A DNA stretch of 26,328 nucleotides from IMG/VR virus record IMGVR_UViG_3300027896_000190, positions 1 to 26,328 of that record. One strand, 5' to 3'. Below the pieces are notes generated by a model. It searched no databases. It was not told the DNA's origin and worked only from the letters and a program-made list of their open reading frames with translations. This DNA is from a virus. How positions within the stretch are numbered: the stretch's first letter is position 1; every line of letters starts with the position of its first letter. Made by a program: the position numbers and the translations under genes. Of the stretch, positions 5,403-25,726 are shown in pieces.

Positions 5403-7673
5403 ATGAGTATTATTAGACAGAACTCTCGTGTTTCACACCACACACTAACGGATACTGGAATAACATTTAGTGTTCCAAGCCAAGAAGATTTCACAATATC
5501 AGGTTCAGGTTCTTGGGGTGTTACAGACTTAGCATATTCTGAAATTGGAGTTGCTGAAACTGATGGTAGAGCATTCATTAGAATAGGTAATGACATTAAA
5601 GAGTTCCAATTTACAACAGAATCACATATTCCGCAAAAAGAATTAGTAGATACATTTGGAACAAGACAAGATGCTATTGAAGTTGATGTTCAAGGGGTTA
5701 ATTTCGGAACAGGAATTAGATCTATTGATGGTCCAACAGAATCACATATGTATTTTGACCCTAATAACATTGTAGTTCATTCTGGTAATGGATCAGGTAT
5801 TACTTATGATGCTGACTATTCATCCACATTTACAAATAATTCATTAGTAACAAAGGCATATGTTCTTTCACACGGAGGTGGTGGAACAGGATCAGGAGCA
5901 CAAGGTGCAACTGGAGCAACAGGAGCAAGTGGAACTTCAGGTAGTTCAGGAACATCTGGAACGAGTGGAGCACAAGGTGCAACTGGATCACAAGGTAATT
6001 CAACAACAATATATTTATATAAAGGAAAAACAAGTGCTACTTCGGGTAATCCAAACCCAGGTTATATTATATGGAACAACGCAACGCAAGTAAGTTCTAC
6101 GCAGATAAACATATCTCATTTAACCGATGATAATTTAGACATTGATATTCTATTATCATTCCTCACAAACGGACAACCTATATACATTCAAGATAGAAAC
6201 AATAGTGGTGATTATCAGAAGTGGAAGATAAACGGAACTCCAACTCAGGTAATCGGCGCGAATAATTATTGGACCCTTCCTGTTACTTTCCTTAGTTCAT
6301 CAGGAGCAGGAACAACAAACTTCGCAAATAACACAGCATTATTTATTGGCATATTCGCACCATCCGGAACGAGTGGAACATCTGGTTCAAGTGGGACATC
6401 CGGAACTTCAGGTAGTTCAGGAACAAGTGGTGCTAATGGATCATCTGGAACAAGTGGTTCATCAGGGACATCCGGAACAACAGGAACTTCAGGTAGTTCA
6501 GGAACAAGTGGTGCTCATGGATCATCTGGAACAAGTGGGTCTTCCGGAACTTCAGGTAGTTCAGGTTCAAGTGGAACGAGTGGTAGTTCGACACCAACAG
6601 GAAACTTAAACCAAACATTAGCAAATGGAAATTGGGGTGGCTCACATTCTATCTATATGCAGAACTCATATAAGATCGGAACTATTGCTGCTGGACCTGG
6701 TTCAATTAAAAATCAACAAATAACTTTTGGTGGTGATGGTGGTTATTTACCTTCAAGATTACAATTGGATACTGCGGGAGCAACTGGTTTTGGTAATGCG
6801 GGTAATTCATTTAGATTCTCATTAGATGATAATAATAGCCAATGGGCTTTCAACAACAATGGTTTATTAACTGCAGACGTAGCATCAATCGTTCTTACGA
6901 ACACAGGTAATATACAACTAACATCTTGGGACACTATAACAACAACATCGGGATCATTAAAACAAAATATAATAAACGGTTCATTTACATCACAAGTTGT
7001 AGCAATGGATGATATAAACAGAAACATACAACACTCTATTCAGGACTTAGCAAGTTCTGACTACTCATTGATGAACCAATATACAACAAATATATTGGTG
7101 ACTGGTTATACGGGTTCGTTTCAAGGTTTAAAATATAACGCTGATTATTCAGCAAATTACACATCAAGATCATTAGTTGATAAAAACTATGTTGATACAA
7201 AAGTTGCTGGTATTACTGGTAGTGGTGGTGGTCTTACTGGCTCTGGAACTGCTAATTATATTTCTAAATTTACATCAACAGGTGTTCTTGGTAATTCTAA
7301 TATTATAGATTATGGTTATCCATTAGGAGTTGGTATAAATTATGCACCACAAGCAGGAACTCAATTATCAATAGGTAATGCTGTGTTAGTTGATACTTTA
7401 TACGCACTTAATAACTATGCTACTTCATCAACAACAAGAGCCGGTTATTTTGTAAATTATGCTAATAGTGGAACAGGTTCTAAAATAGGTATTCAAGTTT
7501 CAGTTCCAAGTGGTTCTAACAACTACGCACTTATAATCAATGACGGTAGAGAAGCATCAGGTAAGGTTCTTACATCGGATGCTTCGGGTAATGCTTATTG
7601 GAGTGTAGCACCATCGACTGGTATAAACTACGGTCAGGTATATGTAATGGCAACAAATAATTTCTTAATATAA
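5403..7673 (+). CDS. Collagen-like tail fibre protein (756 aa)
   Basis: This is a modular fibre. Two copies of a motif of the form Y-x-ADYS-x4-T-x2-SLV-x-K-x-YV lie near residues 132-152 and 575-600; this fibre repeat is common in Bacteroidota phage and surface proteins. Two blocks of Gly-X-Y triplets (residues 165-197 and 322-396, mostly GTS, GSS and GAT) flank a small globular segment with many aromatic residues. The triplets lack proline but have collagen periodicity, so a trimeric shaft is likely. The C-terminal part has GTANYISKFTSTGVLGNSNI and GKVLTSDASGNAYW, typical of the ends of such fibres. No S74 self-cleaving chaperone was recognised. The role is probably host binding at the tail tip, next to the adhesin-like genes. 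Confidence 0.75.
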   Translation: MSIIRQNSRVSHHTLTDTGITFSVPSQEDFTISGSGSWGVTDLAYSEIGVAETDGRAFIRIGNDIKEFQFTTESHIPQKELVDTFGTRQDAIEVDVQGVNFGTGIRSIDGPTESHMYFDPNNIVVHSGNGSGITYDADYSSTFTNNSLVTKAYVLSHGGGGTGSGAQGATGATGASGTSGSSGTSGTSGAQGATGSQGNSTTIYLYKGKTSATSGNPNPGYIIWNNATQVSSTQINISHLTDDNLDIDILLSFLTNGQPIYIQDRNNSGDYQKWKINGTPTQVIGANNYWTLPVTFLSSSGAGTTNFANNTALFIGIFAPSGTSGTSGSSGTSGTSGSSGTSGANGSSGTSGSSGTSGTTGTSGSSGTSGAHGSSGTSGSSGTSGSSGSSGTSGSSTPTGNLNQTLANGNWGGSHSIYMQNSYKIGTIAAGPGSIKNQQITFGGDGGYLPSRLQLDTAGATGFGNAGNSFRFSLDDNNSQWAFNNNGLLTADVASIVLTNTGNIQLTSWDTITTTSGSLKQNIINGSFTSQVVAMDDINRNIQHSIQDLASSDYSLMNQYTTNILVTGYTGSFQGLKYNADYSANYTSRSLVDKNYVDTKVAGITGSGGGLTGSGTANYISKFTSTGVLGNSNIIDYGYPLGVGINYAPQAGTQLSIGNAVLVDTLYALNNYATSSTTRAGYFVNYANSGTGSKIGIQVSVPSGSNNYALIINDGREASGKVLTSDASGNAYWSVAPSTGINYGQVYVMATNNFLI
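5895..5993 (+). repeat. Collagen-like Gly-X-Y repeat, first block (11 triplets)
   Basis: Eleven in-frame triplets (GAQ, GAT, GAT, GAS, GTS, GSS, GTS, GTS, GAQ, GAT, GSQ) at residues 165-197 of the fibre protein. The DNA shares a short core (ggaacttcaggtagttcagg, from 5931) with the second block. Confidence 0.85.
6366..6590 (+). repeat. Collagen-like Gly-X-Y repeat, second block (25 triplets)
   Basis: Twenty-five in-frame triplets at residues 322-396, nearly all GTS or GSS, with single GAN, GTT and GAH units. At DNA level a near-identical segment of more than 60 nt starts at 6402 and again at 6483, an 81-nt (27-codon) period. Another copy of the core starts at 6547. This indicates recent in-frame duplication. 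Confidence 0.85.
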
Positions 7674-8309: not shown

Positions 8310-9230
8310 ATGCAGTTTTTAAATCATATAACAGATGCTAACTTAAACATACAAACATTTTATTATAAAGGTAATAATGATTGGCAGATGTGGAACAAAC
8401 CAGAAGGCGTTAAGAACCTTTACATATTCTGTCTTGGTTCTGGATCAGGTGGTGGACCTGGTGTTTCAGCAGCACTTGGTTCAGCTAAAAGAGGTGGAGG
8501 AGGTGGCGCAGCTGCAGCTTGGAGTATTTTATTTACATCAGCTGACCAAATGCCAAGCACACTTTATATTCAACCTGCGGCACCTGGTCTTGGTGGAACA
8601 GGAATAAGCAATGGTGCTACGGGATCATTATCTTATGTTTCTGTTCAACCAAATACTACTGGTATAAACTTAATTTTACAATCAGGAGCTACATCACCTT
8701 CACCTGGTCAATCAGGAACAAATGGTGGTGCTGGAGGTTCTGCTGGAACAGTATGGACTGGTAGTGCTTTATCATATGGGTTACTAACGGGTTCAGCACC
8801 TGGAACTGGTGGTAATGGATCTGCTGCAACTATATCAACCCCTGGTGTTGATATAATACCAACTTCAATAGTAAGTGGTGGTGCATCAGGTGGATCAACG
8901 AACGTTTCTAATGCTGGTTTTGATGGTGGTGGTGTTCAATCGCAAGGCTATTGGTCTCCTAACTATCTAACGACTGCTGGGCCAGGAAACAGTAGTGGAA
9001 CAGCGAGCAATGGGGCGTCGGCTCCATTAACAGGATTGTTGAACTTAATATCTACAAGAACTAATCTATTTTTTGCAGGTGGTGCTGGTGGTGGCGCTTC
9101 TGGAACTGCTACGGGTGGATCGGGTGGAAACGGATCTTATGGTTGCGGAGGTGGAGGAGGTGGTGCTGGTATAACTGGTGGTGCTGGTGGTAATGGAGGA
9201 CCAGGAATTGTTATAGTGGTAGCGTGGTAA
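8310..9230 (+). CDS. Glycine-rich tail adhesin-like protein, copy 1 (306 aa)
   Basis: First of three adjacent paralogues. The N-terminus has FYYKGNNDWQMWNKPEGV, leading into IFCLGSGSGGG. The body alternates poly-Gly tracts with Ala/Ser/Thr segments, and it ends NGSYGCGGGGGGAG and then GIVIVVAW. An aromatic-Gly-Trp-Asn-Lys-Pro entry followed by Gly-rich repeats is common in phage receptor-binding proteins. Comparable Gly-rich tracts form polyglycine-II helical bundles in gp38-type adhesins of T-even-like phages (family knowledge; similarity of fold here is inference). There is no signal peptide. The products probably bind the host surface at the fibre tip. Confidence 0.65.
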   Translation: MQFLNHITDANLNIQTFYYKGNNDWQMWNKPEGVKNLYIFCLGSGSGGGPGVSAALGSAKRGGGGGAAAAWSILFTSADQMPSTLYIQPAAPGLGGTGISNGATGSLSYVSVQPNTTGINLILQSGATSPSPGQSGTNGGAGGSAGTVWTGSALSYGLLTGSAPGTGGNGSAATISTPGVDIIPTSIVSGGASGGSTNVSNAGFDGGGVQSQGYWSPNYLTTAGPGNSSGTASNGASAPLTGLLNLISTRTNLFFAGGAGGGASGTATGGSGGNGSYGCGGGGGGAGITGGAGGNGGPGIVIVVAW

Positions 9231-9235
9231 ATTAA

Positions 9236-9241
9236 TATATA
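9236..9241 (+). promoter_or_regulatory. TATATA element 4 nt before 9246 start
   Basis: TATATA, then GATT, then ATG. It lies between the first and second adhesin-like paralogues; the first and third copies have no TATATA at this position. Confidence 0.45.
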
Positions 9242-9245
9242 GATT

Positions 9246-10148
9246 ATGATAGATGTATTTAACGTATTAGATAATAGTAATAGCCAGATTTACTATGCAA
9301 CTGGAAACTGGCAGACTTGGAACAAACCAAGTAATTGTAAATTTGTTTCATTATTCGTATTAGGTGGTGGAGCAGGTGGTGGTGGAGGACAACAAGGAAC
9401 CGCGACAAGAAGAGGTGGTGGTGGAGGTGGCTCTGCTGCTTATTCATATGGTATTATACCAGCTCCTTTCGTTCCTGATATTCTTTATATTCAACCAGGT
9501 TTTGGTGGTGATGGTGGTATTGGTGGAGCATCATCTACAAATGGTTCTGCTGGTAGTTTAAGTTATGTTTGCACTAATCCAACTCAATCTGGAACATTTA
9601 GTATTATTTTAAAATCAGGGTTAGCAGCACCAACTGGTGGTTTATCAGGAGCAAACCTCGGAACAGCTGGTGGTGCTGGAACTGCATTTGATGGTTCTGG
9701 ATTAGCAGCTTTTATGATGGCTGGTTCAACACCAGGTCAAGCAGGTGGTCTTGGTAATCAATCTGCTAATGGTGCTGATATAACAATTACTTATATAACT
9801 ACTGGTGGTGCTGGTGGAGGTGGAACAAACTTAAATACGACAGCATATAATGGTGGTTCAATAATCGGAACTGGGTCAAATTATGGTGTAGCTGGTGGTT
9901 TAACAGCTTCTGGTTTAACTGGTAGTTCAGGATTCACTACATTAAATGTAAATAATTTATCATTTCAAAAGTTTTCAATGTTTTTCAATGGTGGAGCTGG
10001 TGGAGCAGCTTCTTTATTAGCAACTGGTGGACAAGGTGGTGATGGTTCTTATGGTTGTGGTGGTGGAGGTGGTGGTGCCGGAGCTACTAACCTTGCTGGA
10101 AATGGTGGACAAGGTGGTGATGGTATAGTAATAATAACCTGGTGGTAA
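9246..10148 (+). CDS. Glycine-rich tail adhesin-like protein, copy 2 (300 aa)
   Basis: Paralogue of the genes on both sides. It opens with IYYATGNWQTWNKPSNCK and a FVLGGGAGGGGG tract, and ends GDGSYGCGGGGGGAG and GIVIITWW. The start and end modules are close to those of its neighbours, while the middle (~residues 90-250) differs. This is expected where a conserved attachment region and C-terminal core frame a variable receptor-contact region. A strong TATATA-N4-ATG start may give it separate expression. The function is inferred from composition and context. Confidence 0.65.
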   Translation: MIDVFNVLDNSNSQIYYATGNWQTWNKPSNCKFVSLFVLGGGAGGGGGQQGTATRRGGGGGGSAAYSYGIIPAPFVPDILYIQPGFGGDGGIGGASSTNGSAGSLSYVCTNPTQSGTFSIILKSGLAAPTGGLSGANLGTAGGAGTAFDGSGLAAFMMAGSTPGQAGGLGNQSANGADITITYITTGGAGGGGTNLNTTAYNGGSIIGTGSNYGVAGGLTASGLTGSSGFTTLNVNNLSFQKFSMFFNGGAGGAASLLATGGQGGDGSYGCGGGGGGAGATNLAGNGGQGGDGIVIITWW

Positions 10149-10163
10149 AAAAACAATAAAAAT

Positions 10164-11081
10164 ATGTTAGTAGCAAATAATTTATGGACTGGAGATTTTA
10201 ATAGACAAATCTTTTATGCTAATTCAACAGGTGGAACTTCATCTCAAATTTGGAATAAACCACCTAATAGTAAATTAATCTATATCACTTGTATTGGTGG
10301 TGGAGGCGGTGGAGGTGCTGGTAGAACTGGTGCCTTAAATACTGGTGTTGGTGGAGGTGGTGGAGCTGCCTCTGGTTATACAACTGCTGTATATTCAGCT
10401 TATATGTTGCCAGACCAACTTTATGTTACTGTTGGTAATGGTGGTATTGGTGGAACAGCTAATGGTAATGGTGCTTCTGGTGAAGTTTCATTTGTATCTG
10501 TAAGACCTGATAATATATCATATAATATTATTGCTAAAAGTGGTGATGCCGGTGCAGGTGGAGGTGCCGCAGGTGGTTCATCTACTGGTGGTGCTGGTGG
10601 AACATTAGGTTCTGCTTGGACTTATACATCTTTTGCTTTTGGATCATTAGGATTGATTCAATCTGTTCCTGGTCAATATGGTGCAAATGGTGGGTCTCAA
10701 ATAAGTGCCGGTGGTGATATAACTATTTCATTACCTATTTCAGGTGGTGCTGGTGGTGGTGGTCAAAATGGAGCATCGACAGCTTATAACGGTGGTAATA
10801 TATTAGCTTCTGGTTTCTTTAATGGTGTATCAGGAGGATTAAATATAGGAGCTACTGGTGGAGGTGGTTTTAAATTATTGCCTGATCCAAAAAATAACTT
10901 ACCTATGTTATTCACAGGTGGTGCTGGTGGTGGTGCTACTTTCTCTACAACCGGTCTTGGTGGTGGTGGAGGTAATGGTTCTTATGGTTGTGGTGGTGGT
11001 GGAGGAGGTTCTGCTTATCAACAAACTGGTGGACCTGGTGGTAAAGGTGGTGATGGTATAGTAATAATAGTTGCTATATGA
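10164..11081 (+). CDS. Glycine-rich tail adhesin-like protein, copy 3 (305 aa)
   Basis: Third paralogue. It has IFYANSTGG followed by QIWNKPPNSKLIYITCIGGG near the N-terminus. Gly-rich repeats lead to NGSYGCGGGGGGS and GIVIIVAI at the end. Its start is preceded by an A-rich leader (aaaaaaacaataaaaat), not by TATATA. The last ~35 codons are very similar to the other copies, and the central part diverges. It ends the fibre module; the next gene is the tape measure after 47 nt. It probably encodes an alternative or additional host-binding tip. Confidence 0.65.
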   Translation: MLVANNLWTGDFNRQIFYANSTGGTSSQIWNKPPNSKLIYITCIGGGGGGGAGRTGALNTGVGGGGGAASGYTTAVYSAYMLPDQLYVTVGNGGIGGTANGNGASGEVSFVSVRPDNISYNIIAKSGDAGAGGGAAGGSSTGGAGGTLGSAWTYTSFAFGSLGLIQSVPGQYGANGGSQISAGGDITISLPISGGAGGGGQNGASTAYNGGNILASGFFNGVSGGLNIGATGGGGFKLLPDPKNNLPMLFTGGAGGGATFSTTGLGGGGGNGSYGCGGGGGGSAYQQTGGPGGKGGDGIVIIVAI

Positions 11082-17448: not shown

Positions 17449-17856
17449 ATGCTATATATAGACTACTTAAATAACAATACTTGGAGTGTTCTAAGTTTAG
17501 GACCTCAATGTGCTAATCCTAAATACTCTTATTTTCTATTTAGAGCAATAGATAAAGATAGTAAAGAAGAGTATTTATTTTTATCTCCCGATTATTCAAC
17601 AAATCCTGAATACTACAACAGATTTCTAATAGTTTCATCAACCGCGAGTGATCCTATGAATGGGGTTATAAATGCACCTGCCAGTCAATATACATTAGAG
17701 GTATATGAGACTCCAGTAAGTGAATTAGATATATCCAAAGCATATGGTTTAGTAAATGTAGATATATTAAATATAGTTGGAACACATTCAAATATAGAAA
17801 CTTATAATAATTCGGGAACACCAATAAATGTATATAAAAATCAAAATAGAATATGA
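17449..17856 (+). CDS. Unknown protein upstream of portal (135 aa)
   Basis: Not recognised. It starts 14 nt after the zinc-ribbon-like gene, and its stop overlaps the portal start by 4 nt, so translation is probably coupled to portal synthesis. The N-terminus (MLYIDYLNNNTWSVLSLGPQ) and the stretch YSYFLFRAIDKDSKEEYLFL suggest a beta-sandwich. TLEVYETPVSELD and an Asn-rich C-terminus follow. There is no membrane segment and no enzymatic motif. Coupling to the portal suggests a structural or assembly role; an Ig-like virion protein is one possibility, without direct support. Confidence 0.55.
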   Translation: MLYIDYLNNNTWSVLSLGPQCANPKYSYFLFRAIDKDSKEEYLFLSPDYSTNPEYYNRFLIVSSTASDPMNGVINAPASQYTLEVYETPVSELDISKAYGLVNVDILNIVGTHSNIETYNNSGTPINVYKNQNRI

Positions 17857-19187
17857 ATAATAAAAAAACAATAGAGGATATAGAATTTGATGGTGACTTA
17901 AAAGGTATTCCATTGAGTATGCACACATTCAATGATATCGGAAAAGAAGTGCCTCAGTATAAAGAGAGTGTAAATGCATCTAATGACTGGGTTAATTTCG
18001 GAATAGATAATTTAATGCCTAACTATTTAATTAGTTTAATAGATAGTTCTCCTAAACACAATGCAATCATTAACCAAAAGGCTAATATGATAGGTGGGAA
18101 TGGAATTGTTAAAACACACTTATCAAATGAAGCATTATCGTTCATCGCAAATAGTGCAAACGGTATGGATCTTGAAGAGTTATTAGCAAGAATTGCTTAT
18201 GATCTTGAAGTATTTGGTTCATTTGCCATAAATGTTATATGGAGTAAAGATAGAACAAGAATTGCTGAATTAAATTATATATCACCTCAACAATTAAGAA
18301 TACAAGCACCTGATAGTGAGTATCCACAAATAGAAAACTATTGGATATGTAAAGATTGGAAGAACCCAAACAAAAATAAACCTGTTCTATATCCTGGTTT
18401 CTCAGTAATAGATAGATCAAATCCTTCTCAAATCCTTTATGTTAAAAAATATCAAGCAGGTAGATACTTCTATGGATCTCCTGAATATTTATCCGGAGCA
18501 AGGTGGATCTCTATGGAATATGAGATATCAAACTTTCACTTAAATAACATTAAAAATGGTTTTGCACCTTCTTTCTTTATCAATTTCCCAACAGGAATAC
18601 CAACAGATGAGGAAATGAGTTTCAATGATAGAAAACTAACAAAACAATTAGCAGGACCAAAAGGTGGTGGTAAAGCATTCATTACTTACTCAGAAGATAA
18701 AGATAGTGCTCCTTCAATTTCACCATTAGATTCTAATTCTAATGATACCAAATTCATTGATCTTAATGAGATTATCACTGAAGGTATATTAGGTGCTCAC
18801 AGGGTAAATGATCCTGCTTTATTTGGATTAAATACTGGTTTAGATGGTGGATTACAAACTTCACAAACAGCAATGTTAAACTCATTAGAGTTATTCAGAA
18901 CACAATATATAGTTCCACAACAAAGATTTATAGAAAAATGTTTCAATAGATTGGCAAGAATAAACGGTATAACAGATTATATTGAGATTGCTGAATACTC
19001 GTTAAATTTTGCAAAAATGGATGTTTCTATACAAGATGTTCTTTCTATATTAAGTGCTCCTATATCCGATGTGGCTAAAAGAAATATGTTAATAATAAAT
19101 GGTTACACAGAGGAAGATGCTAATAAAATAGTTATATCTCAACCATCACCAGAAGCACCAAAAAATAATCCAACTACAAATGAGTAA
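17853..19187 (+). CDS. Portal protein (444 aa)
   Basis: The portal is the dodecameric ring through which DNA enters and leaves the capsid. Typical segments are SSPKHNAIINQKANMIGG near residues 65-85, then DLEELLARIAYDLEVFGSFA and INVIW. A central part follows with GSPEYLSGARWISMEYEISN, INFPTGIPTDEEM, and LGAHRVNDPALFGLNTG near 310-325. A helical stretch with LELFRTQYIVPQQRFIEKCF (~345-365) corresponds to the region before the clip and stem helices. Length is normal for a portal. The start overlaps the previous gene by 4 nt, and the stop overlaps the connector start by 8 nt. Finding the portal downstream of the capsid gene is unusual. Confidence 0.8.
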   Translation: MNNKKTIEDIEFDGDLKGIPLSMHTFNDIGKEVPQYKESVNASNDWVNFGIDNLMPNYLISLIDSSPKHNAIINQKANMIGGNGIVKTHLSNEALSFIANSANGMDLEELLARIAYDLEVFGSFAINVIWSKDRTRIAELNYISPQQLRIQAPDSEYPQIENYWICKDWKNPNKNKPVLYPGFSVIDRSNPSQILYVKKYQAGRYFYGSPEYLSGARWISMEYEISNFHLNNIKNGFAPSFFINFPTGIPTDEEMSFNDRKLTKQLAGPKGGGKAFITYSEDKDSAPSISPLDSNSNDTKFIDLNEIITEGILGAHRVNDPALFGLNTGLDGGLQTSQTAMLNSLELFRTQYIVPQQRFIEKCFNRLARINGITDYIEIAEYSLNFAKMDVSIQDVLSILSAPISDVAKRNMLIINGYTEEDANKIVISQPSPEAPKNNPTTNE

Positions 19188-19791
19188 TTATGTTCAGTTA
19201 ATCGATACAGATTATATTTTTTCACACACAACTATTGACAAAAATGTTGATGCTGATATACTTGGACCATCAATCATAGTGGCACAAGATACTTCTATTC
19301 AACAAATAATAGGTTATAATTTATTACAAACTATAATGGATATGGTTGCTAATAATGTTATTGATAATCCAGTTAATATAAACTATAAAACACTATTAAA
19401 TAATTATATACAACCAAGTTTAGCACATCATTCAGTATGGTATGCACTACCTGAAATACAATATAGATTAACAAATAAGTCTATATTAAGTAAAACCACA
19501 GATAACGCACAAACTACAGGGTTAGCAGAGTTAAAGTATTTGAGAGATAATGCTAAACACATAGCAGAATTCTACAATCAAAGAATTAGAGAACAGATAA
19601 TTAATAATCCTCAATTATATCCTGAGTATTTCCAAACTGTTGGTATAGATAGAATTGTTCCTAAAAGATCTACTTACTTCAGTGGATGGTCTTCAAGTGG
19701 ATCTCCTAATAGAAGAAAAGGTGATAGTGGTTTTTCTGATCCTGATTGTGCTAACTGCGGGGAGCCGGGAATAAATATATTAAATTGGTAA
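19180..19791 (+). CDS. Head-tail connector/adaptor-like protein (203 aa)
   Basis: Begins within the end of the portal gene (8-nt overlap). Segments QQIIGYNLLQTIMDMV, NYIQPSLAHHSVWYALPEI and GLAELKYLRDNAKHIAEFYN form a mostly helical protein of the type found after portal genes in Bacteroidota phages, where it is thought to be a head-tail connector. The C-terminus carries a Ser/Gly-rich linker and a DCANCGEPG motif, a single CxxC that may bind metal with a partner. The role follows mainly from position and pattern. Confidence 0.55.
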   Translation: MSNYVQLIDTDYIFSHTTIDKNVDADILGPSIIVAQDTSIQQIIGYNLLQTIMDMVANNVIDNPVNINYKTLLNNYIQPSLAHHSVWYALPEIQYRLTNKSILSKTTDNAQTTGLAELKYLRDNAKHIAEFYNQRIREQIINNPQLYPEYFQTVGIDRIVPKRSTYFSGWSSSGSPNRRKGDSGFSDPDCANCGEPGINILNW

Positions 19792-19958: not shown

Positions 19959-20384
19959 ATGAAAACATTAGCATTATTTTTAACATCATTTTTAACATTT
20001 CTAATGCCTATAAAGGCTTTAATTTTAACTGTTATTCTATTTACTATTTTAGATACTATAACTGGAATATATGTTTCTATAAAATTAGAAGGTAGAAAGT
20101 CTTTTAGAAGTGGTAAATTATGGAATATAGTTCCAAAAACATTTATGTATAGTATATCAATAATACTTTCTTTTATGATCGATAAATTTGTTTTTGGTGG
20201 TATGTTATTAGGTATTGGATTTCTATTATCTAAATCATTATCTATATTATTTATTTATATAGAAATTATAAGTATAAATGAGAATAGTATGAAACTTGGT
20301 AATAGATCATTTTTTGAACTTATTAAAGGGTTACTTAGTAGAATGAAGTCTATAAAAAAGGATATAAACAAATTATATGAATAA
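19959..20384 (+). CDS. Holin (phage holin 4 family type, 141 aa)
   Basis: A membrane protein with hydrophobic segments at about 5-40 (probably two passes), 62-78 and 80-103, and a basic, helical C-terminus (LLSRMKSIKKDINKLYE). The motif FTILDTITGIYVSIKLEGRKS followed by SGKLWNIVPKTFMY (~28-65), then IEIISINENSMKLGNRSFFE (~101-120), matches TcdE/Phage_holin_4-type holins, which form pores in the inner membrane and time lysis. An endolysin gene is not visible nearby, so it must lie outside the window or be one of the unknowns. Confidence 0.75.
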   Translation: MKTLALFLTSFLTFLMPIKALILTVILFTILDTITGIYVSIKLEGRKSFRSGKLWNIVPKTFMYSISIILSFMIDKFVFGGMLLGIGFLLSKSLSILFIYIEIISINENSMKLGNRSFFELIKGLLSRMKSIKKDINKLYE

Positions 20385-21349: not shown

Positions 21350-21355
21350 TATATA
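21350..21355 (+). promoter_or_regulatory. TATATA element at head of polymerase leader
   Basis: AATATATAG has the same flanks as the start-linked elements but lies about 110 nt before the polymerase ATG and has no start codon 4 nt downstream. If the element is a promoter, this copy would produce a leader RNA containing the 21384-21424 hairpin. Confidence 0.35.
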
Positions 21356-21370
21356 GTATTAAGAAAGATA

Positions 21371-21429
21371 TTTAATCTAACTTCCTTGGTCCAGCAGAGT
21401 AGCTACTGCTGGTGCCTTCCAAGGTTAAA
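21371..21429 (+). promoter_or_regulatory. Large hairpin in the leader of the polymerase gene
   Basis: CCAGCAG (21391-21397) pairs with CTGCTGG (21406-21412) around an 8-nt loop; GTAGCTAC at 21399-21406 is itself a palindrome. CCTTGG (21384-21389) pairs with CCAAGG (21419-21424), and TTTAA (21371-21375) with TTAAA (21425-21429). The asymmetric internal loop contains TGCCTT. No T-run follows. It is G+C-rich in an A+T-rich setting and ends 31 nt before the polymerase start. A cis-regulatory RNA, an operator or a replication origin hairpin are all possible. Confidence 0.6.
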
Positions 21430-21459
21430 TAATAAGGTTATAAAAAATAAGGCATAAAT

Positions 21460-22875
21460 ATGAAAATTGTAACAAAAAACATTGAATTTGACCTATTTGG
21501 TTCAAATTTTCTAACACCAGAAGTAGTAGATCTTCTAAAAACATCAAATAAAATTTATTTAATACCACAAAGTTTATATCAACACTTAAAATTAAAGGTT
21601 GATAATGACATTACTTTAAACACATCCAAATACTGGATAAGTTGTTTAGACTTATATTCTTCTATATTACAAGGTATAAATAGTTCAAAACATCTAAAAA
21701 GCATAAATTGGGAATATAATATAATTATAGAAGAGTGGCAGAGTAATAATATACTTTCTAATCAAAGGGGTAGTTTTAGTAGAGATAAGGGAATAACATT
21801 TACTTATGAGTTTAAAGAAACTAATTCATATTGTTTAATTTCTATAATAGAAGATGATAAAGTAATAAAAGAAAGTATAGATGTTAAATTAGATAGTTAT
21901 TACAAAAAGACTTTATTAAATTGTGATATAGATGTAGATAAAGCAATTTATGATGAGTATATGAATAAAGAAAGTATATCTATTTTTGTAAAGAGAATCT
22001 CTCTTATATTTAATTTCTTAGGTAGAAGATATATTAAAAAAGGTAAGAGAGTAAATAGATGGTATAATTCATTTTCTTCTTTAACATCTACATCAAGAAA
22101 ATATGTTAAAATAGATGGTAAATACTTTTATGAAATGGATTTATCTAATGCTCAACCTTCTTTATTATGTAAATATCTAATGGATAACTATGATAACTTT
22201 GATGAGAAATATATTGAAATGACATCAAATGGTAAGTTCTATGAGAGTATAATGGACTTAGCAAAGGAAATGGGTATAGAAGGAGAGAAAACCTATGATA
22301 GAGACTTAGGATGCCAAACTTTTAAAAGTTTTTCTAATAGAGATCATGTTAAAACATTGTGTTATCAAAATATATTCTTTGGTCAAAATACATCAACCAA
22401 AACATTTGAACTATTTGCTAAATTATATCCTAATACTTGGAGACTTTTAAGTTATGAATTAAATAGTGGTGATGAGAAACTTGCTGGTATATTACAAAAT
22501 ATGGAAGCAAATATATTCTTGAACATTAAACCAAAATGTAATTACTTTACAGTTCATGATGCTATTTATATAAGTGATAAATCCTTTAAAGGTTATGTAG
22601 ATAATAAAGTTAAAGAATTAATGGGCACAGATAAGTTTATTTTAGGATCTAATTTTGAGGAACAAGATAGTAAAAGGGTTAATTATAATATATCTATAGA
22701 TAAGGAAGTTCCATCAACTATTTTTATAATTGAAGATGTTAATAGAAAACCTAAGAATTCTATAAAAAATGATATTAAAATTCTTTTAGAAAAAGGACTC
22801 AAATCGGACCAAATTATAGAAGAATTAGGTATAAGTAGGAAAACATTTTATAAATGGAAGAAAGAATTAAGATAG
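21460..22875 (+). CDS. Compact family A polymerase-like (palm domain) protein with C-terminal HTH (471 aa)
   Basis: Three motifs match the palm of the polA/T7 RNA polymerase superfamily. Motif A is YFYEMDLSNAQPSLL with Asp227. Motif B is RDHVKTLCYQNIFFG with Arg294, Lys298 and Phe307-Gly308. Motif C is FTVHDAIYI with His366-Asp367. The two Asp residues would hold the catalytic metals. A segment before motif A (NRWYNSFSSLTSTSRKYVKI) resembles the lead-in of other stand-alone polA-like proteins. Residues 1-185 are not recognised and show no exonuclease motifs. Residues ~436-471 form a helix-turn-helix (DQIIEELGISRKTFYKWKKE). It is much shorter than DNA polymerase I. DNA replication or primer synthesis is most likely; RNA polymerase activity cannot be excluded. 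Confidence 0.65.
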   Translation: MKIVTKNIEFDLFGSNFLTPEVVDLLKTSNKIYLIPQSLYQHLKLKVDNDITLNTSKYWISCLDLYSSILQGINSSKHLKSINWEYNIIIEEWQSNNILSNQRGSFSRDKGITFTYEFKETNSYCLISIIEDDKVIKESIDVKLDSYYKKTLLNCDIDVDKAIYDEYMNKESISIFVKRISLIFNFLGRRYIKKGKRVNRWYNSFSSLTSTSRKYVKIDGKYFYEMDLSNAQPSLLCKYLMDNYDNFDEKYIEMTSNGKFYESIMDLAKEMGIEGEKTYDRDLGCQTFKSFSNRDHVKTLCYQNIFFGQNTSTKTFELFAKLYPNTWRLLSYELNSGDEKLAGILQNMEANIFLNIKPKCNYFTVHDAIYISDKSFKGYVDNKVKELMGTDKFILGSNFEEQDSKRVNYNISIDKEVPSTIFIIEDVNRKPKNSIKNDIKILLEKGLKSDQIIEELGISRKTFYKWKKELR

Positions 22876-24782: not shown

Positions 24783-25133
24783 ATGAAACAATTATTAAAA
24801 ATAATTAAACGGGACAAAGAAGTAAAACCCGCTTTCATCGAAAACAATTCCCAACACCAGATCATACACGGTCATATCCAATTTATATTCACACTCATAG
24901 AAAAATTAGCAACCCCACAATTCCTTCCGGATACTAAACTAATGAATATAGCCCTACATATTAACGAAACTATAATGAGTTTAATAGAATGGTCCTCAGA
25001 GACATATTATCTAATACTAATATCACCATACCTAAATGAAAGATTACAAAGATATAAAGAGATCTCCTTGGATAAGGAATTGTATGAAGCACTACAAAAT
25101 ATAATTGAGATAGAAAAATTAATAATGATATGA
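24783..25133 (+). CDS. Unknown helical protein upstream of sigma-like gene (116 aa)
   Basis: Starts MKQLLKIIKRDKEVKPAFIE. It continues with HQIIHGHIQFIFTLIEKLAT and MNIALHINETIMSLIEWSSE, then LNERLQRYKEI and ELYEALQNIIEIEKLIMI. The protein is almost fully helical with amphipathic segments and no clear membrane span. Its stop overlaps the start of the sigma-like gene by four bases (ATGA), so the two are translationally coupled. That coupling suggests a partner or regulator of the sigma-like protein, such as an anti-sigma or RNA polymerase-binding protein, but nothing in the sequence proves this. Codons are more often C-ending here than in the virion genes. Confidence 0.55.
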   Translation: MKQLLKIIKRDKEVKPAFIENNSQHQIIHGHIQFIFTLIEKLATPQFLPDTKLMNIALHINETIMSLIEWSSETYYLILISPYLNERLQRYKEISLDKELYEALQNIIEIEKLIMI

Positions 25134-25726
25134 AACGAAACGAAATGATTGAAATGATATGGAACGACGAAGCCATCAACGAAGCAATAAAGAATATAGT
25201 AAGTAAGTCCTGCCAAGAAGACTTTAAAGCACACTTTATAGAACAAATAATAAATACATCAGAAGATAAATTAAACGAACTACATAAAAAGAATGAACTT
25301 ATATACTTCGCCGTTAAAGTAATAACGAATCAATGGAGATCTAACTCCAGTTCATTCTGGAAAATATACAGAAACAACGGATCACCCAGAAAAACAAAAG
25401 AAAAACTAATAAACGGACAAATACAACTATCGGAAAACCCCGAGGAAATATACGCAACAATAAACGGACAAAAAGTTATATGCACCAACGATTATGAAGT
25501 CGATGATATAAACCCAGAAGAAACAATAGCCAAAATAAAACTACTCCTATTAGAACAGTATGACGAGTTCCTCGTTAATCAATACCATAAAACATTATTT
25601 GAACTATACCACTTCAAGAAACTTAAACTAAAAGAAATTCAAGATATAACAGGTATAAATATGAAAACTGTATCAAAGTCCGTAATCAAGACACGTCTTT
25701 GGTTAAAAACAAAGTTAGAGAAATGA
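25130..25726 (+). CDS. Sigma-70-like transcription factor (198 aa)
   Basis: Two regions resemble small sigma factors. Residues ~8-80 are helical with LIYFAVKVITNQWRSNSSSF and KIYR, like region 2, which binds core RNA polymerase and the -10 element. Residues ~153-197 have YHKTLFELYHFKKLKLKEIQ, then DITGINMKTVSKSVIKTRLW, matching region 4 with its helix-turn-helix. The linker (~85-130) is charged and variable. Size is near that of ECF-type factors. Phages use such proteins to redirect host RNA polymerase to their own promoters; the TATATA elements of this window are candidate targets (inference). It overlaps both neighbours by four bases. Confidence 0.6.
   Translation: MKRNEMIEMIWNDEAINEAIKNIVSKSCQEDFKAHFIEQIINTSEDKLNELHKKNELIYFAVKVITNQWRSNSSSFWKIYRNNGSPRKTKEKLINGQIQLSENPEEIYATINGQKVICTNDYEVDDINPEETIAKIKLLLLEQYDEFLVNQYHKTLFELYHFKKLKLKEIQDITGINMKTVSKSVIKTRLWLKTKLEK

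Follow-up and report, generated by a model that had tools for sequence, protein, structure and literature searches.

A minimal superfamily-A polymerase with a helix-turn-helix tail in a small phage, a member of an uncharacterised clade from phages and mobile elements of Bacteroidota

The 471-residue protein described here, encoded in the window (the whole stretch of DNA analysed, a linear virus record of 26.3 kb with head and tail genes), is almost certainly a superfamily-A polymerase related to DNA polymerase I and reduced to a minimum. The polymerase group in which it falls is uncharacterised and occurs in phages and mobile elements, nearly all from Bacteroidota with some from a few neighbouring phyla. 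The protein is likely to act in replicating or repairing DNA. The best single reading of that role, which we hold with about even confidence, is a self-targeting primase-polymerase starting phage replication. A preliminary description made from the letters alone had reported a minimal palm protein with motifs A, B, and C and a helix-turn-helix (HTH) tail; the coordinates and length of its open reading frame were recovered unchanged (Table 1), and the observation as a whole was confirmed.

Table 1. Features of the polymerase gene and its upstream flank (residue numbers refer to the encoded protein)
Feature	Position in window	Strand	Evidence or remark
Hairpin CCAGCAGAGTAGCTACTGCTGG just 5' of the gene	21391..21412	+	Candidate terminator, operator, or origin element
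Minimal superfamily-A polymerase gene, 471 aa	21460..22875	+	Open frame, PolA profile match, fold matches
Probable winged-helix domain, residues ~55-115	21622..21804	+	Inferred by alignment to a confidently predicted relative
Three thumb-like helices, residues 146-188	21895..22023	+	AlphaFold model, pLDDT 76-89
Arg200, invariant Arg in the beta-hairpin preceding the palm	22057..22059	+	30/30 aligned; hairpin before motif A in models
Motif A, D227-L-S-N-A-Q232-P233; Gln232 at the steric-gate Glu position	22138..22158	+	PolA alignment
Motif B (fingers helix), R294...K298...F306-F307-G308	22339..22383	+	PolA alignment, column counts
LQNMEA, residues 345-350, helix with conserved Gln346/Glu349	22492..22509	+	Q 29/30, E 30/30
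Motif C, T364-V-H366-D367-A	22549..22563	+	PolA alignment; D 30/30, H 28/30
Low-confidence linker, residues 389-428	22624..22743	+	pLDDT 42-62
C-terminal HTH, HTH_7 resolvase type, residues 429-470	22744..22869	+	Pfam E 7e-6, above cut-off

Catalytic motifs and predicted fold

Searches of Pfam, PHROGs, NCBIfam, and PDB with the single protein sequence recovered the HTH only, and an hmmsearch of PDB with the profile returned nothing real, with arginine kinase and a sporulation protein at chance level. Alignment of the family profile with Bacteroidota PolA (PolA from five Bacteroidota genomes and two phage PolAs) gave an E value of 8e-5 and matched all three motifs (A, B, and C) position by position, D227, R294/K298, and H366-D367 aligning with the motif A Asp, the RxxxK, and the HD of PolA, respectively. 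Across a 30-row alignment of relatives, Asp227, Lys298, and Asp367 were invariant and His366 was kept in 28 rows, while the Arg of the RxxxK in the fingers helix (R294-K298) was present in 20/30 and replaced by Lys in nine. Most of these relatives had been retrieved by a motif A pattern, and thus the invariance of N230, Q232, and P233 in that alignment is biased; in a pattern-free set of 14 members found by profile, D227, Q232, K298, and D367 were each present in all 14 and H366 in 12, with Phe in the other two. The retention of catalytic residues in distant relatives indicates that selection maintains the protein for its enzymatic function. The motifs A (Asp227) and C (His366-Asp367) first proposed are in register with PolA, their Asp residues being invariant among the relatives; for motif B, the choice of Lys298 was borne out by its invariance, whereas Phe307-Gly308 turned out to follow a one-residue insertion, and the Tyr766 position is Phe306. 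Four relatives (L043, L007, L113, and L114) carry Phe instead of the HD His in motif C (F-D-A or F-D-S), and Phe was also seen there in the phage polymerase group divPolA2 (F-D-E).

The AlphaFold model of the window protein had a mean pLDDT of 76.5, with a confident core at approximately residues 145-390 (pLDDT 75-98), and that of the relative L015 reached a mean pLDDT of 90.4 and a pTM of 0.84. The structure prediction that the preliminary description had proposed gave a palm topology, so that one of its refuting outcomes, a model lacking a palm fold, did not occur. In this model D227 ends strand 224-228, and H366-D367 form part of the turn that links strand 362-365 to strand 368-371. In Foldseek searches against PDB, family-A DNA polymerases filled ranks 1-42 for the window model (best E 1.6e-4) and also took the top ranks for the relative's model. 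The best matches in a viral structure library were phage proteins of the same size, including one annotated 'Putative DNA polymerase I' (E 3.5e-12). Foldseek TM-scores were low (mostly 0.3-0.4), partly because the target structures are larger, and the case for a polymerase therefore rests on ranking, motifs, and topology jointly; the superfamily placement first suggested agrees with both the PolA profile match and the Foldseek ranks. The possibility of a defence protein of the reverse-transcriptase type was rejected, as a DRT9 structure appeared only at E 0.25 and probability 0.10.

Terminal domains

The polymerase core is preceded only by winged-helix-like and thumb parts, and no Pfam exonuclease match was detected, in agreement with the absence of an exonuclease domain noted earlier. 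The N-terminal 185 residues, at first called unrecognised, are so only in part, given that residues ~146-188 are thumb-like and that a winged helix precedes this region in a relative. In L015, this domain shows the textbook order of winged-helix elements, with helix 60-77, strand 82-85, helices 86-93 and 97-106, and wing strands 110-114 and 122-127; the window protein aligns to it, with low pLDDT in its own model there. These models and alignments suggest that an N-terminal winged-helix domain is probably common to the family members.

The C-terminal HTH is real, with a significant HTH_7 match and confidently modelled helices (432-444, 449-456, and 460-470; pLDDT 77-94). It was present in the window protein only, being absent from the other 29 of the 30 aligned relatives, and is therefore not part of the core mechanism. 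A 686-aa family member (L102:8023-10080) has a C-terminal NUMOD1 (E 2e-10) and a GIY-YIG-like region (E 1e-3, under the Pfam cut-off), a possible polymerase-nuclease fusion, and C-terminal tails in the family seem to have been gained separately. The enzyme could plausibly choose its own start site, as the preliminary description suggested, and the HTH might select the origin.

Active site and sugar-selecting pocket

In the PolA profile alignment, Gln232 sits on Klenow Glu710 and Phe306 on Tyr766. These two residues have been termed universally conserved in A-family polymerases (PMC4882331), Glu710 excluding ribonucleotides and pairing with Tyr766 (PMC4882331, PMC9324360); the canonical pair is not present in the window protein. 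The steric-gate position was Gln in 14/14 pattern-free members, and the Tyr766 position was Phe in nine, Tyr in three, Leu in one, and Asn in one (manual count), so that the choice of sugar is not readable from sequence. The idea that the steric-gate Glu and Tyr766 change jointly was dropped, since Gln is universal and the Tyr position is mostly Phe yet Tyr in some. With regard to motif C, Tt72 PolA is active with D615-S616 (PMC9324360), and by analogy an HDS or HDA motif lacking the second acidic residue would be compatible with activity.

The pocket also bears on whether the protein might be a single-subunit phage RNA polymerase whose promoters would be recognised by the DNA-binding domains. 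The superfamily is shared with T7 RNA polymerase, the ribonucleotide-excluding Glu of PolA is Gln in every member, the search with the relative's model placed a mitochondrial RNA polymerase at rank 21 (E 0.04), and divPolA2 has been proposed as a possible RNA polymerase (PMC11348598). Despite the common superfamily and motif layout, however, T7-like and mitochondrial RNA polymerases matched the structure more weakly than DNA polymerases, which led both PDB searches, the T7 and mitochondrial enzymes being far behind for the window model (T7 RNA polymerase E 0.57), and their N-terminal promoter-binding domain is absent from the window protein. Moreover, the steric-gate residue is Gln here, whereas T7 RNA polymerase has Gly, and a small sigma-factor-like protein encoded in the window at 25130-25726 (PHROG 1740, E 0.002, a weak match) suggests use of the host RNA polymerase. 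A phage transcription enzyme, one of the alternatives named in the preliminary description, is thus modestly disfavoured by the fold searches and, all points taken together, unlikely. On visual inspection, L007, L037, and the small phage G001 have genes resembling the sigma-like gene, for which tblastn gave no significant match.

Distribution and relationship to known polymerases

A first viral scan with the single sequence found no relatives, and alignments were required. The alignment-based scan revealed 34 viral loci, and later scans added two viral loci (one of them, L043, new) and 15 genome loci, nearly all from Bacteroidota, with others from Ignavibacteriota, Kapabacteria, and one Akkermansiaceae bin. 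The family was detected in 17 of 396 Bacteroidota genomes by profile search, and tblastn matched distantly related proteins encoded by huge phages and by a Hymenobacter plasmid. Carriers comprise huge phages, small phages, prophages, a plasmid, and integrative elements. No family model for the clade was found in Pfam, NCBIfam, or PHROGs.

The closest described group is divPolA2 (Yutin et al. 2024, PMC11348598), whose function is given as unclear, possibly an RNA polymerase, and of which AUR84708 is an example, with further homologues in barbaviruses and in Vibrio phage ICP1. Sequences gathered starting from AUR84708 gave a profile match (hhalign E 8e-13, probability 97.8, 188 columns) far better than that of PolA. 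Both groups have the same length class, no exonuclease domain, the same catalytic region, and a GR..y...(n)L...R..l.IDG...c..D block preceding and within motif A; however, the steric-gate position of divPolA2 is mostly Glu or His instead of invariant Gln, its known hosts are Gammaproteobacteria, and it is carried besides a regular DNA polymerase. In a 40-row tree with long branches, rough bootstrap, and a root for drawing only, the family and divPolA2 fell on opposite sides (100/100 support), the window protein lying outside divPolA2 and grouping with L007 and L043 (99/93). Sequence comparison therefore points to divPolA2 as a probable sister group of the window clade.

The activity of such proteins, earlier presented as poorly described, is not wholly undescribed, as shown by work on TV-Pol (PMC2579912), on priming by CCPol-MP (PMC7581432), and on divPolA2 (PMC11348598). 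TV-Pols, named in 2008 and described as transposon genes with Bacteroidetes sequences included (Iyer et al., PMC2579912), resemble the window protein in being minimal superfamily-A polymerases from phages and mobile elements, stand-alone proteins of 400-600 aa without a nuclease and with the hairpin Arg, RxxxK, and two Asp. They differ in their linkage to a D5 helicase, no fusion or neighbour of this kind being seen in the window family, and in an all-helical N-domain in place of the winged helix. In the fingers, where TV-Pols have a conserved Asp, G258 and Y261 were invariant and no Asp was among the invariant columns (30 rows; TV-Pol compared by description only). As for TV-Pol-type linkage, the window has no resolvase or integrase, G001 has both, and several elements have integrases. 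One protein, Ma-LMM01 MAP_030, which we take to be a TV-Pol candidate, showed no significant sequence match. The general TV-Pol features fit the window protein, and some Bacteroidetes TV-Pols of Iyer et al. may belong to the same clade.

CCPol, a distant TV-Pol-kind member, primes DNA de novo with its partner MP, and CCPol-MP is the one case of this kind that has been tested; alone it extends primers without priming, the SSB-like MP being needed (PMC7581432). CCPol-MP of SCCmec and the PolA-SSB primases are, like the window protein, A-family polymerases of mobile elements with proposed or shown priming (PMC7581432, PMC10061031). CCPol, however, is closely related to housekeeping PolA and acts together with a helicase and an OB-fold protein, neither of which was found beside the window gene. 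The CCPol/PolA-SSB layout, in which the polymerase and helicase genes flank one for an OB-fold SSB, was not recognised by Pfam in the window and its three related small-phage genomes, none of which gave a helicase match. As to PolA itself, the palm/fingers fold and motifs A, B, and C are shared, whereas its 5'/3' exonuclease domains are absent from the window protein, and its Glu710 and usually Tyr766 (Klenow numbering) become Gln and Phe in the window family.

Genome context

The phage from which the window derives is small and of Bacteroidota-type lineage, and is tied to G001, G002, and G003 by portal, connector, protease, or capsid homologues. Its gene order runs from portal (17853-19187) through connector (19180-19791), a holin-type gene (19959-20384), and a zinc-ribbon-like gene to the polymerase and small genes. 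Elsewhere, three consecutive glycine-rich proteins of ~300 aa each (8310-11081) resemble tandem paralogues, probably fibre proteins, and a tail protein (5403-7673) contains long GTSGTSGSSGTSG collagen-like repeats. Terminase genes are missing from the window, which is therefore a genome fragment from whose record further replication genes may be absent. In G001, an integrase gene lies at the start of the record and a host comM-like gene at its end, indicating a near-complete prophage. Pfam scans of the ORFs of these four small phages detected structural genes, terminases, an integrase, and a resolvase, and no helicase, primase, or other DNA polymerase. The upstream hairpin is modest (z -2.16; 5/200 shuffles equally good in a fold of 21350-21460) and not conserved in sequence, no Rfam match was obtained, and a search for a conserved origin, iterons, or origin-like repeats near the polymerase gene found none.

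A PolA-like gene downstream of the family gene shares a 4-bp overlap with it in two related contigs of huge phages (L005:3572-6018 and L038:4410-6880), and in most huge phages the neighbours of the family gene are not recognisable as replication genes. An AAA_24 ATPase adjoins the polymerase at eight loci and DUF3871 at six (overlapping records counted once), and tyrosine integrases also occur; the AAA_24 loci lie in Bacteroidota integrative elements (L047, L053, L055, L057, L102, L104, L107, and L115). DUF3871 has almost no literature, with one paper mentioning it. In G003 (L062:6246-7067), an ExoX-C-like gene of 88 aa and a DnaQ-like exonuclease gene (RNase_T, E 9e-20) were found, directly downstream of the polymerase.

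Relatives in integrative elements and a plasmid, together with the description of TV-Pols as transposon genes by Iyer et al. (PMC2579912), are what a mobile-element polymerase hitch-hiking in phages, of no service to them, would lead one to expect. Such a passenger is nevertheless very improbable, because the position after portal, connector, and holin is constant in the window and G002, the gene adjoins this module in G003, this position is kept despite head proteins only ~24-44% identical, and no transposase flanks the gene in the window.

Possible role in replication

Under the preferred reading of a self-targeting primase-polymerase, the N-terminal winged helix and C-terminal HTH would most likely target specific DNA, probably an origin on the phage's own genome, the palm and fingers would initiate and lengthen a short DNA strand on the opened template, and continuation would fall to host enzymes or, in some relatives, to a phage PolA. 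Catalytic activity, de novo priming, a preference for dNTPs, and origin binding are all presumed in this scheme. It is supported by the palm/fingers/thumb fold with motifs in PolA register, by the lack of any other replication enzyme recognisable by Pfam in four related small phages, by the PolA overlap in two huge phages, by the integrase/AAA_24/DUF3871 linkage, and by the priming of CCPol with MP. Against it stand the lack of an identified MP-like partner or helicase beside the gene, given that CCPol alone does not prime, the restriction of the C-terminal HTH to the window protein, the fragmentary window, the mostly unrecognisable huge-phage neighbours, and the absence of origin-like repeats nearby.

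Some of these points would also suit an accessory, primer-dependent DNA polymerase for gap filling, repair, or recombination-dependent synthesis, which is possible although rather unlikely. CCPol by itself depends on a primer (PMC7581432), divPolA2 phages also carry a regular PolB and repair was suggested by the authors (PMC11348598), and both the AAA_24 linkage and the downstream exonuclease gene of one relative, placed as if for proofreading in trans, are in line with such a function. However, an accessory enzyme would hardly be the sole recognisable replication enzyme of small phages, and repair polymerases rarely have DNA-binding domains at both ends.

A stronger form of the initiator proposal, to be taken as tentative and on balance doubtful, is a one-polypeptide A-family primase-polymerase that would be placed at the origin by its DNA-binding domains and in which the Gln pocket would start chains, perhaps with ribonucleotides. 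To our knowledge, known primases almost all belong to the DnaG or AEP families, and priming by the A family rests on CCPol-MP. If this proposal is true, one polypeptide would prime with no need of a distinct primase, an SSB partner, or a helicase, and would serve as the replication initiator throughout a group of Bacteroidota phages and integrative elements. A widespread clade with its own DNA-binding domains, an altered sugar pocket, and no visible partner makes it directly testable whether the palm of an A-family enzyme primes unaided, and would point to the likely initiator of replication in small phages of the Bacteroidota lineage that have no otherwise recognised replication gene.
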